From positions 1-64,000 of the forward strand of contig SCUU01000125.1 in the NCBI GenBank assembly GCA_004297065.1: DNA of 64,000 nucleotides, read 5' to 3'. Both the position numbers and the translations under genes were made by a program. The notes beneath the pieces were generated by a model. It saw nothing but the letters and a program-made list of their open reading frames with translations. It did no database searches and had not been told where the DNA came from. Of the stretch, positions 15,088 to 30,973 are shown piece by piece (the first letter of the stretch is position 1; each line of letters starts with the position of its first letter). This DNA comes from Gallionellaceae bacterium (GTDB lineage: Bacteria > Pseudomonadota > Gammaproteobacteria > Burkholderiales > Gallionellaceae).

Positions 15088-17901
15088 TCAGGCCGTTCTG
15101 TTTTCGCGGATCAGGAATTGTTGCGCCTCATGCTCGGGAAGCGGACGGCTGAATAGATAGCCCTGGTACTCTTCGCATTGCAAATCGCGCAGGAAGTCGA
15201 GTTGTTCCCGAGTTTCCACGCCCTCGGCGATCACGCGCATTTCCATCGCATGCGCCAACACCACGGTTGCGCTGACTATGCTTTCGTCGTTTTCATCGGT
15301 AGTGATGTCGCGCACAAACGATTGATCGATCTTCAGCGCCTTCATGGGCAACAGTTTCAAACGGCTGAGCGAGGAATAGCCGGTGCCGAAATCGTCCAGT
15401 GCCATATCGAACCCGGCTTCACTGAGCTGATTTATCAGGGTCAGGCTGTTGCCGCCATGATCCATCAGCATGCTTTCGGTCAGTTCCAGTTCGATGAAAT
15501 GCGCCGGAATGCCGGCATCGCGCACGATGGATTTGATTTTTTCCACCAGGTTTTTTTGCCCGAACTGGCGCACTGACAGATTTACCGCAACAGGCACGAT
15601 GCGGTAGCCCAGCGATTGCCAGATACGTTGCTGCATTGCCGTCTGACGCAATACCCAATCGCCGATTTCGTTGATTAACCCGCTTTCCTCGGCTACCGGG
15701 ATGAATTGCGCCGGGGATATAAATCCCATCTGCGGATGTTGCCAGCGCAACAGGGCCTCCATGCCGACCACTTCGCCGCTAAGAATATTCACCTTGGGCT
15801 GGAAATGCAGCATGAGTTGTCCCATGGCGATAGCGACGCGCAGGTCGTTTTCGAGTTGCAAACGCTGCACTGCCTTGGTGTTCATCTCCGGCTTGTAATA
15901 CTCGAAGCGGTTGCGTCCCGCATCTTTGGCGCGATACATCGCCAGGTCGGCATTGCGCAGCAACTGCACGGACGTCTCGCCGTCGTCAGGATAGACGCTC
16001 ACGCCGATGCTGGGGGTGACCGACAATTTGTACTCGTTCACGGTGAATTGTTCGAGCAGGGAATCGATCATTTTCTCGGCGACGAAAGTGGCTTCATCTT
16101 CCGAGTTCAGGTCGCCCAGCAGGGCCACGAACTCGTCCCCACCCTGGCGCGCGATGGTGTCGGAACGGCGCAGGCAAGCCTTCAGCCGTTGCGATACCAT
16201 TTTCAGCAACTCGTCCCCGATATCGTGGCCCAGCGAATCGTTGATGTTTTTGAAGTGATCGAGATCGATGAACATCACGGCCATCTTGGTGTGATGGCGC
16301 TGTGCCAATGTAAGCGATTGTTCCAGACGGTCGTTCAACAGATAGCGGTTGGGCAATCCGGTCAACACATCGTAATTGGCCAGATACTGGATGCGCTCTT
16401 CTTCTTTTTTGCGTTCCGTGATGTCCAGATAAACGGCAATGTAATTGGTGATTGCGCCCCGCTCGTCGCGCAATACGCTCACGGTTACCCATTCCGGGAA
16501 GACCTCGCCGTTTTTGCGCCGGTTCCAGACTTCGCCGCGCCATTGATCTTTATTGTTCAGTGCCGCATAGAACGAACGGTAAAATTCCTTGTTGTGTCTG
16601 CCGGAACTGAGGATGCGCGGATTCCGGCCCAGCACCTCATCTTCCGCATAACCGGTGATCCCGATAAACGCACGGTTGATCGACACGATGTTGTGGGCGG
16701 CATCGGTGATCATGATCGCCTCGGAATTGTTTTCGAACACCTTGGCTGAAAGACGCAGGCCTTGTTCAGCCTTTCTGCGCTGCGCAATTTCGCGGGTCAG
16801 CTTTTCCACCATGTCGTGGATGGCGGTCGAAAGATGCGCGACCTCGCCGTCGCCCTGCTGCGCCGGCACGTCATACACCAGATCGCCGGCTGCGATTTTG
16901 TCTGCCGCCCGGCTGATGCGCGTGATCGGGCGCGCGATGCGGCCAGCCAGCAACCAGCCCAGCCAGGAAAACAGCAGGCCCAATCCGATACCCATCATCA
17001 GGATGCGCTGGCGCAGCTGACGTGCAGGTGCAAATGCCTGCGTTACGTCTTCGCGCATCAACGACACCCAACCCAAACCGGGATAATCGCGATAGCCGGA
17101 AGATTTGGCATAACCGACCAGATAGGTTTTGCCGTTGCTCCATTTCTCCAGCAGATAACCGCTGTCCTGTCCGGCCTGCCGAATAGCATGCATGGTTTGC
17201 GGGGCCAGCTTGGACAATTCGCTGCGCGCTGCCTCCGGGCCCGACAACACCAGGCCGTCTTTGCTGAGCAGGAAGATGTCTTTGCCGGGCGTCTTCTTGC
17301 TGTCCAGCACCTCTTCGGCCCATTTCCAGAAGATGTGGCCGCACAAAACACCTTGCAGCACGCCTTTTTTGTCAATCACGGGTGCCGCAACGTCAACCAG
17401 ATAGAACATCTCGCCGCTGGGATTGGGCAGCAGCTTGGAGAGCAGCAATGCGTCATGCATGTCGCCGATGAAATAACTGTCGCGCCCCTTGATGCACCAT
17501 GGGCGCTTCGACAGGTCTTTGCCTTCCAGATACTTTCCGGTACCTACCAATCCGTTGCCTTTGGCGTCGCAGATTCCGATCCACGCATAGGCATTGAAGG
17601 TGTTTTGCAGACGTTCCAATATCTCGCGTTTGCGCTCGATGGGGACGCGCGGATCGCGAATTTCATCGAGGATGACGGCATTTTGAATTTCGCGACTGCG
17701 CTCGAACATGCCACGATCCAGCACATCCAGAACGCTTTTCGCACGCCGCACGAAGGATTCGCCTTCGCTTTTTTCGATATGCTCCTGGCTGTTTTTCGCC
17801 GCGTAATAGCCAAGCACCAGCGATAACAGCAATGCGATCACTCCGCTGGCCAGGCTGATCTGCGAGCGTAAGCTATTCTTCGGATTTATTTTATTCAGCA
17901 T
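15088..17901 (-). CDS. Cache-HAMP-PAS-GGDEF-EAL signalling protein (c-di-GMP)
   Basis: N-terminal TM and extracytoplasmic domain, HAMP, PAS, RQGGDEFVALLG, GMEALLRWQHP, DDFGTGYSS. Confidence 0.93.
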   Translation of the reverse strand: MLNKINPKNSLRSQISLASGVIALLLSLVLGYYAAKNSQEHIEKSEGESFVRRAKSVLDVLDRGMFERSREIQNAVILDEIRDPRVPIERKREILERLQNTFNAYAWIGICDAKGNGLVGTGKYLEGKDLSKRPWCIKGRDSYFIGDMHDALLLSKLLPNPSGEMFYLVDVAAPVIDKKGVLQGVLCGHIFWKWAEEVLDSKKTPGKDIFLLSKDGLVLSGPEAARSELSKLAPQTMHAIRQAGQDSGYLLEKWSNGKTYLVGYAKSSGYRDYPGLGWVSLMREDVTQAFAPARQLRQRILMMGIGLGLLFSWLGWLLAGRIARPITRISRAADKIAAGDLVYDVPAQQGDGEVAHLSTAIHDMVEKLTREIAQRRKAEQGLRLSAKVFENNSEAIMITDAAHNIVSINRAFIGITGYAEDEVLGRNPRILSSGRHNKEFYRSFYAALNNKDQWRGEVWNRRKNGEVFPEWVTVSVLRDERGAITNYIAVYLDITERKKEEERIQYLANYDVLTGLPNRYLLNDRLEQSLTLAQRHHTKMAVMFIDLDHFKNINDSLGHDIGDELLKMVSQRLKACLRRSDTIARQGGDEFVALLGDLNSEDEATFVAEKMIDSLLEQFTVNEYKLSVTPSIGVSVYPDDGETSVQLLRNADLAMYRAKDAGRNRFEYYKPEMNTKAVQRLQLENDLRVAIAMGQLMLHFQPKVNILSGEVVGMEALLRWQHPQMGFISPAQFIPVAEESGLINEIGDWVLRQTAMQQRIWQSLGYRIVPVAVNLSVRQFGQKNLVEKIKSIVRDAGIPAHFIELELTESMLMDHGGNSLTLINQLSEAGFDMALDDFGTGYSSLSRLKLLPMKALKIDQSFVRDITTDENDESIVSATVVLAHAMEMRVIAEGVETREQLDFLRDLQCEEYQGYLFSRPLPEHEAQQFLIRENRTA

Positions 17902-18082
17902 ATTCGGTTGCCTGTCGGTGAAGCTTGCGCTCTTAAAGCCGGCTAGCCGGCATACTAGACAGAAGAAGATATCTACTCAAGCGGCTTAGTCTTACTGTGT
18001 CACAAAACAGAGTGCACTCCCTCGGCCTTTGTATGCAATAGGGAGGGGATACCGCATCTGTGTTATCAGTCCGCAGGATTGT

Positions 18083-18156
18083 TGTGGGAGCGACCTCCCG
18101 GTCGCGACAGGTTTGGAGGTTTTCACCGGATCGCGACCGGGAGGTCGCTCCCACAT
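18083..18156. repeat. Perfect 25-bp inverted repeat
   Basis: TGTGGGAGCGACCTCCCGGTCGCGA ... TCGCGACCGGGAGGTCGCTCCCACA, 24-nt loop. Confidence 0.95.
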
Positions 18157-18186
18157 AGCCAGCGTCTTTTGCTGGCTTATAACCAA

Positions 18187-18219
18187 CCACTTGGCAACCG
18201 TCTTGTGGTTGCCAAGTGG
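18187..18219. repeat. Perfect 13-bp inverted repeat
   Basis: CCACTTGGCAACC-gtcttgt-GGTTGCCAAGTGG. Confidence 0.95.
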
Positions 18220-18350
18220 GATGGCTAGTTGCTCCATCAGTAGTTCCATCAAGGGCAAAGTGGCAATAGGATAATTGGTGATTTGAACTATTTTGCTTTG
18301 TGACACAGCAAGATTAGGGCACCGCGCTTTTATGCATAAGAGACCGCCGG

Positions 18351-19247
18351 TCATTGCACCAGATACTCGATCACCTCTGTCGGCCATTCGCTGAACGGCT
18401 GCCCCAGGCTGATCGCGCCCGTGCCGTGCAGCATGATTTCCTGATGCGCGAGATGGATGATCTGGTGGTCGCTGAAACGGATGTAGGTGCCGTTGGCGCT
18501 GTGGTCGGCGATGACGAATTTGCCGAAGCTGAATTCGATGCGCGCGTGCTGGCGCGAGGCGTAGCTGCTCTGGATGACGACATCGCAGGTGTCGCCGCGC
18601 CCGAGCACGATGCTTTTGTGCTGTTCGCCGATGGTGGTGATTTGCTGGCGGTAGCGCAGCATCAGTTCGTGGCGTGCCTCGGTCGGTTTGCGGAACTGCG
18701 GCAGGCCGATGCGCGTGCTCAGAGTGTCGTCCTGCTCCCAGTTGACCTGGAACACATCCATCGCTTCCTCTTTGCCGCGGAATTCCGCGCGCGATACTTG
18801 GCGCACTTTGCCGCGCAAATCCGCGGGCAACGCGTCGGCCACGGCGCGGGTGGTCATGATTTGGCGCGCGCGCGTAATCGCCGTCACGCGCGCGGCGACA
18901 TTAACGGCATCGCCGAACATATCGTTGGCTGCGCGGATGACCTCGCCATAGTGCAGTCCGATGCGGATGTAGATGGGGCGTTCGCCGCCGGGGCGTTGCC
19001 GCTCGACTGCCGTTTGCATGGCGCAGGCCGCACGCAGCGCTTCCGCCGGGGAGGAAAAGGCGCACATGATCTCGTCGCCTATGGTTTTGACCAGCGCGCC
19101 TTGGTGCGGCGGCAATTCGGCGATCATGATGTCCAGACAGTTGGTCACCAGTTTGAGCGCTTCCGCGTCGCCCAGTTTGTCGTACAGGGCAGTGCTGCCG
19201 CTGATGTCGGCGAACAGGATGGCGAGTTGTTGTTGCGGCGCGCTCAT
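18351..19247 (-). CDS. Class III adenylate/guanylate cyclase with C-terminal FHA domain
   Basis: ILFADISGSTALYDKLGD, VKTIGDEIMCAF, IGLHYGEVI, GDAVNVAARV; FHA pattern VLGRGDTCDVVIQSSYASRQHARIEF, DHSANGTYI. Confidence 0.9.
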   Translation of the reverse strand: MSAPQQQLAILFADISGSTALYDKLGDAEALKLVTNCLDIMIAELPPHQGALVKTIGDEIMCAFSSPAEALRAACAMQTAVERQRPGGERPIYIRIGLHYGEVIRAANDMFGDAVNVAARVTAITRARQIMTTRAVADALPADLRGKVRQVSRAEFRGKEEAMDVFQVNWEQDDTLSTRIGLPQFRKPTEARHELMLRYRQQITTIGEQHKSIVLGRGDTCDVVIQSSYASRQHARIEFSFGKFVIADHSANGTYIRFSDHQIIHLAHQEIMLHGTGAISLGQPFSEWPTEVIEYLVQ

Positions 19248-28700: not shown

Positions 28701-30911
28701 ATGCGTTTCCGCTTTCTTTCCGTTTTTCTCGTCGGGCTCGGTTTGTTTTCGCCGCATTGTCATGCGGCGGAGTTGCCGGCGAGCGCCGTTGCTGTTGCCG
28801 GGCCGGAGTCCGAGAAAACTGTCTACATCGAGGCGGAGCAGATGACGGGGAGGAAAAACGAGCAGATGGAGGCGCACGGCAACGTCGAGTTGCAACAGGG
28901 CGACAAGAAAGTGTACGCCGAGCATTTGTACTACGAGCCCGGTACGCGCGAACTGACTGCCACCGGTTCGGTGCGTCTGGAACAGTCCAGCGGCTCGGTG
29001 TCCGGCCTCGATTTGAAGATGAATCTGGACAGCAACGTCAGCGAAATGAGCAAGCCGATATTCCGGTTGAATCAGCATAACGCGCGCGGTTCGGCAGAAA
29101 TCATGCGCAGCAGGGGAAAGTTGGACTATGTGTTCGACGGGGCCACCTATACGACTTGCCCTGCGGGTAACGACGATTGGCTCTTGAAGATGTCCCGCCT
29201 GGAGATCGACAAAAAAGCGCAGCTGGGAACGGCGCATAACGCTTGGGTCGAATTCAAGGGGGTGCCGCTGCTGTATACGCCTTGGATGGACTTTCCGCTG
29301 GATGACCGGCGGCGCTCGGGCTTGCTGGGGCCGGTTTTCGGCGTTACCACGCTGGGCGGTGCGGAAATTACCCTGCCCTTTTACTGGAATATTGCGCCGA
29401 ACCGCGATGCGACCATAGCGCCGCGCGTGATCGACAAGCGCGGTACCTTGTTCAACGACGAATTCCGCTATATGGGATCAAGTTATGTCGGCGAAATTCA
29501 TTACGATGTGCTGCAAAACGACCGTATCACCAATACCACGCGGACATATACGGCGCTCAAGCATTCGCAGAATCTGGGCGGCGGCTTCGGTGCGGCGGTG
29601 AACTTCAATCGGGTATCGGACGACGATTATTTCCGCGACTTGTCGAACACGGTAATAGGCGGAACCCAAACCCAACTGCTGAACGAGGGGGTGCTGTCTT
29701 ATGGCGCGGGCTGGTGGTCGGCTTCGATGCGGACGCAGACGTACCAAACCTTGCAGGATCCGCTGGCGCCGGTGGCGATCCCTTACCATCGCTTGCCGCA
29801 AATCAATCTGGCCGCGCAGCAGAGTGTGAATGACAATCTGCTGAACATGGTGAGCGAATACGTGGATTTCCGTCACCCCACCCAGGTGAACGGGCAACGC
29901 CTGGTGCTGTATCCCTCGGTTACCTATGCTTTATTGAACGATCCCGGGTTTTATCTCAAGCCCAAGCTGGGCGTACACCATACGCAATATGCCATGGGTG
30001 ACAACAACAGCACGAACATTCCGAACTCTTCCAGAACGTTGCCCATTTTCAGTCTGGACGGCGGTATGACGTTCGAGCGGGATTTGGCGCTGGGGGACGG
30101 CGAGTATGTACAGACGCTGGAGCCGCGCGTGTATTACGTGAAGATACCTTATAGGGACCAGAGCTTTTTGCCGAATTACGATACTTCGCAGGCGGTATTC
30201 AGCTTTGCCCAGATGTTTACGGAGAACCGTTTTTTCGGTAACGACCGCGTCGGCGACGCGAACATGGCAACGGCGGCATTCGCCACGCGCTTGATCGACA
30301 ACTCCAGCGGCGTCGAGCGCTTGCGCCTGACGCTGGGAGAGCGCTTCAGTTTTGAGGCACCGCTGGTGAATCTGGTGACACCAGACGCGAATAGCCGTTC
30401 CGATATATTGCTTGCGCTGGGAGGGCGGGTGACCGATGCGATGACGCTGGACGGCGTGCTGCAATACAACCCCAATGTCAAGCACACAGAATCTTCCAAC
30501 ATTACCGCCAGATATAAACCCGAAACGGGCAAAGTGCTGAATCTGGGTTACCGTTACACGCGCGGCGCTCTTCCCCGGAGCGACGTGCGCCAAGTCGATT
30601 TTTCCACGCAGTGGCCTTTGTTCTGGCACTGGTACGGGGTTTCGCGCTTGAGTTATTCGTTACAAGACCAGCGGATTTTGGAGGCATTGGCCGGGCTTGA
30701 GTATAATCAGTCGTGCTGGATGCTGCGCTTGGTGGCACAGAGATTCCCGACGGCCACAGAACAAGTTTCCACAGGGATATTCGTGCAACTGGAGCTGAAC
30801 GATCTTGTCGCCCTTGGGGCCGATCCGCTCAGTGCGTTGCGTTTGAGTATTCCCGGGTATTCCAAATTGAACACTCGCCCCGCCGGCTTGTCGGCGCAAG
30901 GCTTGAGGTGA
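28701..30911 (+). CDS. lptD: LPS-assembly protein LptD
   Basis: Signal peptide, VYIEAEQMTGRKNEQMEAHGNVELQQGDKKVYAEHLYY, PLLYTPWMDFPLDDRRRSGLL, YNQSCWMLRLVAQR. Confidence 0.95.
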   Translation: MRFRFLSVFLVGLGLFSPHCHAAELPASAVAVAGPESEKTVYIEAEQMTGRKNEQMEAHGNVELQQGDKKVYAEHLYYEPGTRELTATGSVRLEQSSGSVSGLDLKMNLDSNVSEMSKPIFRLNQHNARGSAEIMRSRGKLDYVFDGATYTTCPAGNDDWLLKMSRLEIDKKAQLGTAHNAWVEFKGVPLLYTPWMDFPLDDRRRSGLLGPVFGVTTLGGAEITLPFYWNIAPNRDATIAPRVIDKRGTLFNDEFRYMGSSYVGEIHYDVLQNDRITNTTRTYTALKHSQNLGGGFGAAVNFNRVSDDDYFRDLSNTVIGGTQTQLLNEGVLSYGAGWWSASMRTQTYQTLQDPLAPVAIPYHRLPQINLAAQQSVNDNLLNMVSEYVDFRHPTQVNGQRLVLYPSVTYALLNDPGFYLKPKLGVHHTQYAMGDNNSTNIPNSSRTLPIFSLDGGMTFERDLALGDGEYVQTLEPRVYYVKIPYRDQSFLPNYDTSQAVFSFAQMFTENRFFGNDRVGDANMATAAFATRLIDNSSGVERLRLTLGERFSFEAPLVNLVTPDANSRSDILLALGGRVTDAMTLDGVLQYNPNVKHTESSNITARYKPETGKVLNLGYRYTRGALPRSDVRQVDFSTQWPLFWHWYGVSRLSYSLQDQRILEALAGLEYNQSCWMLRLVAQRFPTATEQVSTGIFVQLELNDLVALGADPLSALRLSIPGYSKLNTRPAGLSAQGLR

Positions 30912-30973
30912 TACCAGACACCGGGCCATTGTTGTTTGATTGCCTGGTGGGTCGGCTAGCGGTTTCATCGGGG

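Follow-up and report, generated by a model that had tools for sequence, protein, structure and literature searches.

The locus and the architecture of the element

The window analysed here is a stretch of 64,000 nucleotides from a Gallionellaceae bacterium (contig SCUU01000125.1, positions 1 to 64,000), in which two genes encoded on the minus strand, a GGDEF-EAL gene (15088-17901) and a guanylate-cyclase-FHA gene (18351-19247), are separated by a region harbouring a 324-bp element (17990-18313). The element is located 88 bp upstream of the start of the GGDEF-EAL gene and on the downstream side of the cyclase-FHA gene, beyond its stop. An initial annotation, made from the sequence alone, had named the same neighbours and described a MITE-like element with TIRs and no recognisable transposase ORF; indeed, none was found within 17990-18313.

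The ends of the element are the inverted sequences TCTTACTGTGTCACAAAAC and TCTTGCTGTGTCACAAAGC, directly flanked by copies of TTAG at 17986-17989 and 18314-18317, in agreement with the duplication previously proposed. From left to right, the element comprises a left TIR (TCTTACTGTGTCACAAA, 17990-18006, plus strand), a left subterminal segment (18007-18082) with an imperfect GTGCAYTCCCTC/GGGAGGGG...GCATC hairpin, kept in the siblings as judged from 14 aligned copies of the same genome, the interior modules described below, a right subterminal segment (TAGTTCCATCAAGGGCAAAGTGG...GATTTGAACTATTTTGC, 18241-18296), the first part of which aligns with a second MITE family of this genome, and a right TIR (TCTTGCTGTGTCACAAA as read on the minus strand, 18297-18313). 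Folded as a single strand, the element reaches -94.7 kcal/mol, against -42.1 +/- 3.7 kcal/mol for shuffled sequences (z = -14), a degree of structure far beyond chance. The nested hairpins noticed earlier do exist as repeats, but they are not of the MITE's own design, and correspond instead to a REPIN and to another hairpin repeat that is present twice.

Dispersed copies and target site duplications

The source assembly comprises 3.1 Mb in 343 contigs, the present copy lying on contig C46. The TIRs can be written as TCTT(A/G)CTGTGTCACAAA, and the sequence CTGTGTCACAAA occurs nine times in this genome, compared with no occurrence of its reversed control, and relatives of the element found elsewhere in the genome are about 71-97% identical to it. 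A search for the TIR, run without imposing any flanking sequence, identified about 24 genuine ends, 23 of them flanked by YTAR (about 1 in 64 expected) and the remaining one by ATAG. Both ends are present in the element itself and in the copies on C3, C102, C324 and C41, all five with identical 4-bp repeats, and a sixth two-ended element on C336, 190 bp long and with a different interior, also carries an exact 4-bp duplication. When all loci are considered, exact 4-bp TSDs accompany 33 of 51 TIR pairs. The YTAR flanks and the exact TSDs of the sibling copies thus uphold the 4-bp YTAR-like duplication suggested in the initial annotation.

For the sibling on C3, a related empty site was found in the form of a paralogous repeat on C260, which has a single CTAA and aligns across the insertion point. 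At the locus of the 324-bp element itself, the empty-site comparison encountered broken synteny, the two flanking genes being located apart in relatives. Short, non-coding, bounded by TIRs, flanked by a target duplication and present in many dispersed copies, the element has the attributes of a MITE, a reading that the copy number, the TSDs and the related empty site of the sibling all bear out.

Of 150 genomes sampled from the same bacterial family, 29 carry this TIR family, one of them (G149) with 171 ends. Named records with the family include Gallionella, Gallionellales and Nitrosomonadales MAGs, and various Burkholderiales and Alphaproteobacteria. Other MITE subtypes with IS701 ends, 143 and about 190 bp long and with a different interior (GCGATCAAGGGATGCAGTGCAAGGC / GCGCTGAAGGGCGCATTGCGGCG), were observed at L060/L130 (C336) and, in relatives, at L100, L102, L124, L125 and L127.

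Derivation from the IS701 family

The initial annotation had proposed a search for other copies and for a parent IS with the same TIRs, which, besides the ends described above, yielded intact parents in relatives. Full-length elements with these TIRs are 1468-1532 bp long, and an IS701-type transposase was found in all 11 that could be read end to end. These 11 proteins are 57-100% identical to the transposase of L118 (G078:C52), which matches the IS701 model of NCBIfam (NF033540, E 1.6e-131) and the DDE_5 domain of Pfam (PF13546, E 4.4e-84); the association of TIR and IS701 transposase also holds for partial copies in G017, G021, G023, G066 and G152. According to a review of the IS4 and IS701 families (De Palmenaer et al. 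2008, PMC2266710), IS701 elements are 1400-1550 bp long, generate 4-bp repeats and have ends of the form ---YACT-Y--YR. The left TIR matches this consensus fully, the right TIR deviates from it at a single position (A to G, position 5), and the TTAG/TTAG duplication has the published length of 4 bp. Because same-ended full-length elements encode IS701 transposases and the left TIR fits the IS701 consensus, the IS5-type assignment put forward initially was dropped: the TIR family is IS701-derived, and the 324-bp element is almost certainly a non-autonomous IS701-family MITE.

Unlike IS701 insertion sequences as published (1.4-1.55 kb), the element carries no transposase gene, and its resemblance to the full-length ISs found stops at the 17-18 bp ends (25 bp at 84% at the very most). 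Since nothing but the ends is common to both, a simple internal deletion of any sampled IS is unsupported. No parent IS701 with these ends was found in the element's own assembly, the only IS701 transposase of which, encoded on the GC-richer contig C59, was rejected as a candidate, being 43% identical and devoid of such TIRs. The parent IS for this genome may be unassembled or lost. As a side observation, the GC-rich contig C59 (L137) may be a contaminant, the contamination of the assembly being 5.7%.

A MITE review that was searched does not mention IS701, and an IS701-derived MITE was not encountered in the available portions of the literature searched for IS701 together with MITE. The assignment gives a family to an otherwise orphan MITE, and indicates that IS701-type ends drive MITE bursts across Gallionellaceae. 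MITEs and REPINs are themselves known kinds of element, and the interest resides in the shared interior and in the hairpin family that forms part of it.

A REPIN within the element

The first interior module (18083-18155) is a REPIN, i.e. an inverted REP doublet (GTGGGAGCGACCTCCCGGTCGCGA) with two perfect 25-nt arms (18083-18107 and 18131-18155) and a 23-nt spacer. The perfect 25-bp inverted repeat reported initially is therefore present, although its end had been placed one base too far, at 18156 instead of 18155. The module also occurs outside the MITE, and elsewhere in the genome a RAYT (Y1_Tnp) ORF (C40:30064-30396) is flanked at either end by identical REP pairs, an arrangement described for REPINs (PMC3116915). 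The inverted doublet, the short spacer and the Y1/RAYT gene flanked on both sides are as in known REPIN/RAYT systems (Bertels and Rainey 2011, PMC3116915; Nunvar et al. 2010, PMC2817692), from which the present case differs in that the REPIN rides within a MITE having the ends of a DDE transposase.

A 62-nt hairpin repeat of Gallionellaceae

The initial annotation had also pointed to AGCCAGC-gtctttt-GCTGGCT and to a perfect 13-bp inverted repeat, and both are present, at 18157-18177 and 18187-18219 (arms 18187-18199 and 18207-18219) respectively. A 62-nt hairpin repeat (18179-18240, plus strand), supported as such by a covariance model, covariation and distribution, has the 13-bp inverted repeat as its core. 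The segment 18156-18178 (plus strand), with a partly deleted 5' arm, is the remnant of a host hairpin, presumably an earlier copy of this repeat, into which the 62-nt copy would have been inserted. Comparison with the siblings on C98, C3 and C324 and with other nested copies places the break in this host hairpin at ..GCTT. By means of a pattern requiring a ..CTT site in the 3' arm, six clear cases of such nesting were found, each with the insertion directly behind that site and in one and the same orientation; two of the six lie in related composite repeats.

The covariance model, built from 31 copies, scores 18179-18240 at 83.1 bits (E 1.2e-22), this copy being itself among the model sequences. 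In this genome it gives 97 hits. Among 36 family genomes, 31 yielded hits, compared with 1 of 24 outside the family. Another, diverged copy occurs in the window at 30911-30971 (37.8 bits, E 1e-8). Compensatory changes on both sides of the stem affect 7 of 15 pairs, with the proviso that the copies were gathered by a pattern fixing the ACT/AGT part of the stem, so that those three pairs carry no weight. Double-changed cells number 54, whereas shuffles gave 20.7 +/- 3.7 and slid controls 4-29. Beside the stem, a purine-purine mismatch (A1 columns 8 and 42) switches in concert, G.A in 18 copies and A.G in 13, with no other combination, which suggests a structural non-canonical pair.

RAYT was considered as a possible mobiliser of the 62-nt hairpin and rejected: copies lie within about 1.5 kb at only 2 of 32 Y1 loci, none of them flanking both sides. 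Genomes with 24-73 copies gave no PF01797 hit, some of these genomes being incomplete. Naive ORF calling around the copies was too noisy to define their ORF context. The repeat has no Rfam match at the gathering threshold, only sub-threshold hairpin look-alikes being obtained; Gallionella and Sideroxydans are not mentioned in the REP papers searched, and the element and repeat sequences were not found in the literature, with the exception of one unrelated short-string match. The closest comparison is with the GTAG/CGTC-tagged palindromic repeats (Di Nocera et al. 2013, PMC3733652), which are likewise short, abundant and palindromic; no dedicated transposase was found for the 62-nt hairpin, as for the CGTC repeats. 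CGTC is located in the loop of many 62-nt copies, and not at the end of the palindrome. In contrast to those repeats, the 62-nt hairpin has conserved flanks (ATAACCA and ATGGCTAGTTGTTYCATCAG) and the concerted purine-purine mismatch, is mainly limited to one bacterial family and nests in itself at one site. It appears to be an undescribed family, specific to the iron-oxidising Gallionellaceae. A covarying hairpin reaching about 100 copies per genome poses a clean question as to its mobiliser, and as to whether it moves as DNA or RNA.

Alternative explanations and proposed mechanism

Some IS5-like elements have targets of the 4-bp YTAR-like type, and the YTAR duplications would suit a MITE whose ends came from an IS5-family element. 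Such an origin is nevertheless very improbable, given that IS701 transposases, and none of the IS5 type, are encoded by all 11 full-length elements with the same TIR, which agrees with the published IS701 end consensus (PMC2266710). It is equally hard to credit that the locus represents a chance cluster of intergenic palindromes, namely a REPIN and terminator-like hairpins, around which the outer inverted repeat would be coincidental and no transposon unit would exist. The REPIN and the hairpin repeats of the interior do exist independently, and one terminator-like stem can be recognised on the minus strand; against this, the same TIRs, accompanied by YTAR duplications, are encountered at sites unrelated to one another and also bound full-length ISs, and a sibling copy has an empty site.

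A different possibility, which is compatible with a MITE origin, is that the cassette constitutes a structured RNA or regulatory element of the neighbouring genes (a terminator, or an mRNA-stabilising or processing site), kept for its function once mobility had become extinct. The very stable fold, the covarying hairpin, the position between two genes on the same strand, and a 13-bp stem that runs into a weak T-rich tail when read on the strand of those genes are all in line with this idea. We regard it as unlikely, the copies being located at unrelated loci with differing neighbours and nested in one another; a sigma-70-type promoter was looked for and none was found.

Under the preferred reading, that of an IS701-family MITE, we infer that an IS701-type DDE transposase acts in trans by recognising the 17-bp ends TCTTRCTGTGTCACAAA, and that insertion at YTAR would duplicate 4 bp. 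The interior would represent a cargo of other repeats, gathered by nested insertion and subsequently spread as one unit, in which a REPIN of the kind mobilised by Y1 (RAYT) transposases would have been joined by a Gallionellaceae 62-nt hairpin inserted into an older copy of itself. The internal hairpins would accordingly be passengers, and might serve as terminators or mRNA stabilisers for the genes beside which they have landed.

A second MITE family with the same interior

Several partial matches to the 324-bp element belong to a second MITE family of the same genome, with the unrelated TIR GGGTGCGATTCAAACTGATG (TIR2) and 9-bp duplications (ATCATAGGA, ATTGCGTAA and GGCTGTCTT). Its members were located at L011 (C186, 1244-1582), L014 (C164, 1441-1990), L020 (C268, 1006-1675), L021 (C170) and L022 (C3, 1410-1785), and no long TIR2 pair that might represent a parent was found among the loci examined. 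Their interior is the same REPIN-plus-hairpin cassette, at 71-86% identity, and homology to the IS701 MITE on C41 reaches, by eye, about 18 bp from the end of the latter. In the accessible parts of their descriptions, other mosaic MITEs (TIMEs, PMC4133298; a minisatellite-bearing MITE of P. gingivalis, PMC4596501) are similarly non-autonomous, and mosaic in structure or holding other repeats; as far as those parts extend, the present case differs in that a single genome holds one interior within two TIR/TSD systems that are unrelated to each other. The sharing of one hairpin cassette by two unrelated end systems, with 4-bp YTAR and 9-bp duplications respectively, opens end replacement or repeat capture to a direct comparative test.

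We tentatively propose, as a possibility that we rate somewhat below even, that the 62-nt hairpin, ATAACCA-[RCNACT stem-loop AGTNGR]-ATGGCTAGTTGTTYCATCAG, could be a new kind of minimal mobile element in Gallionellaceae, which some enzyme would move in the form of single-stranded DNA and which would insert into the 3' arm of other copies of itself, always at the same site. Together with the REPIN it could form a cassette hitch-hiking in two or more MITE families whose transposases are unrelated. At L014 (C164), around positions 1750-1880, the hairpin array is broken by a segment lying between the inverted repeats GTGTCGCAAACCAGAAATAACG and CGTTATTTCTGGTTTGCGACAC, which may represent a third small element inserted within the cassette.
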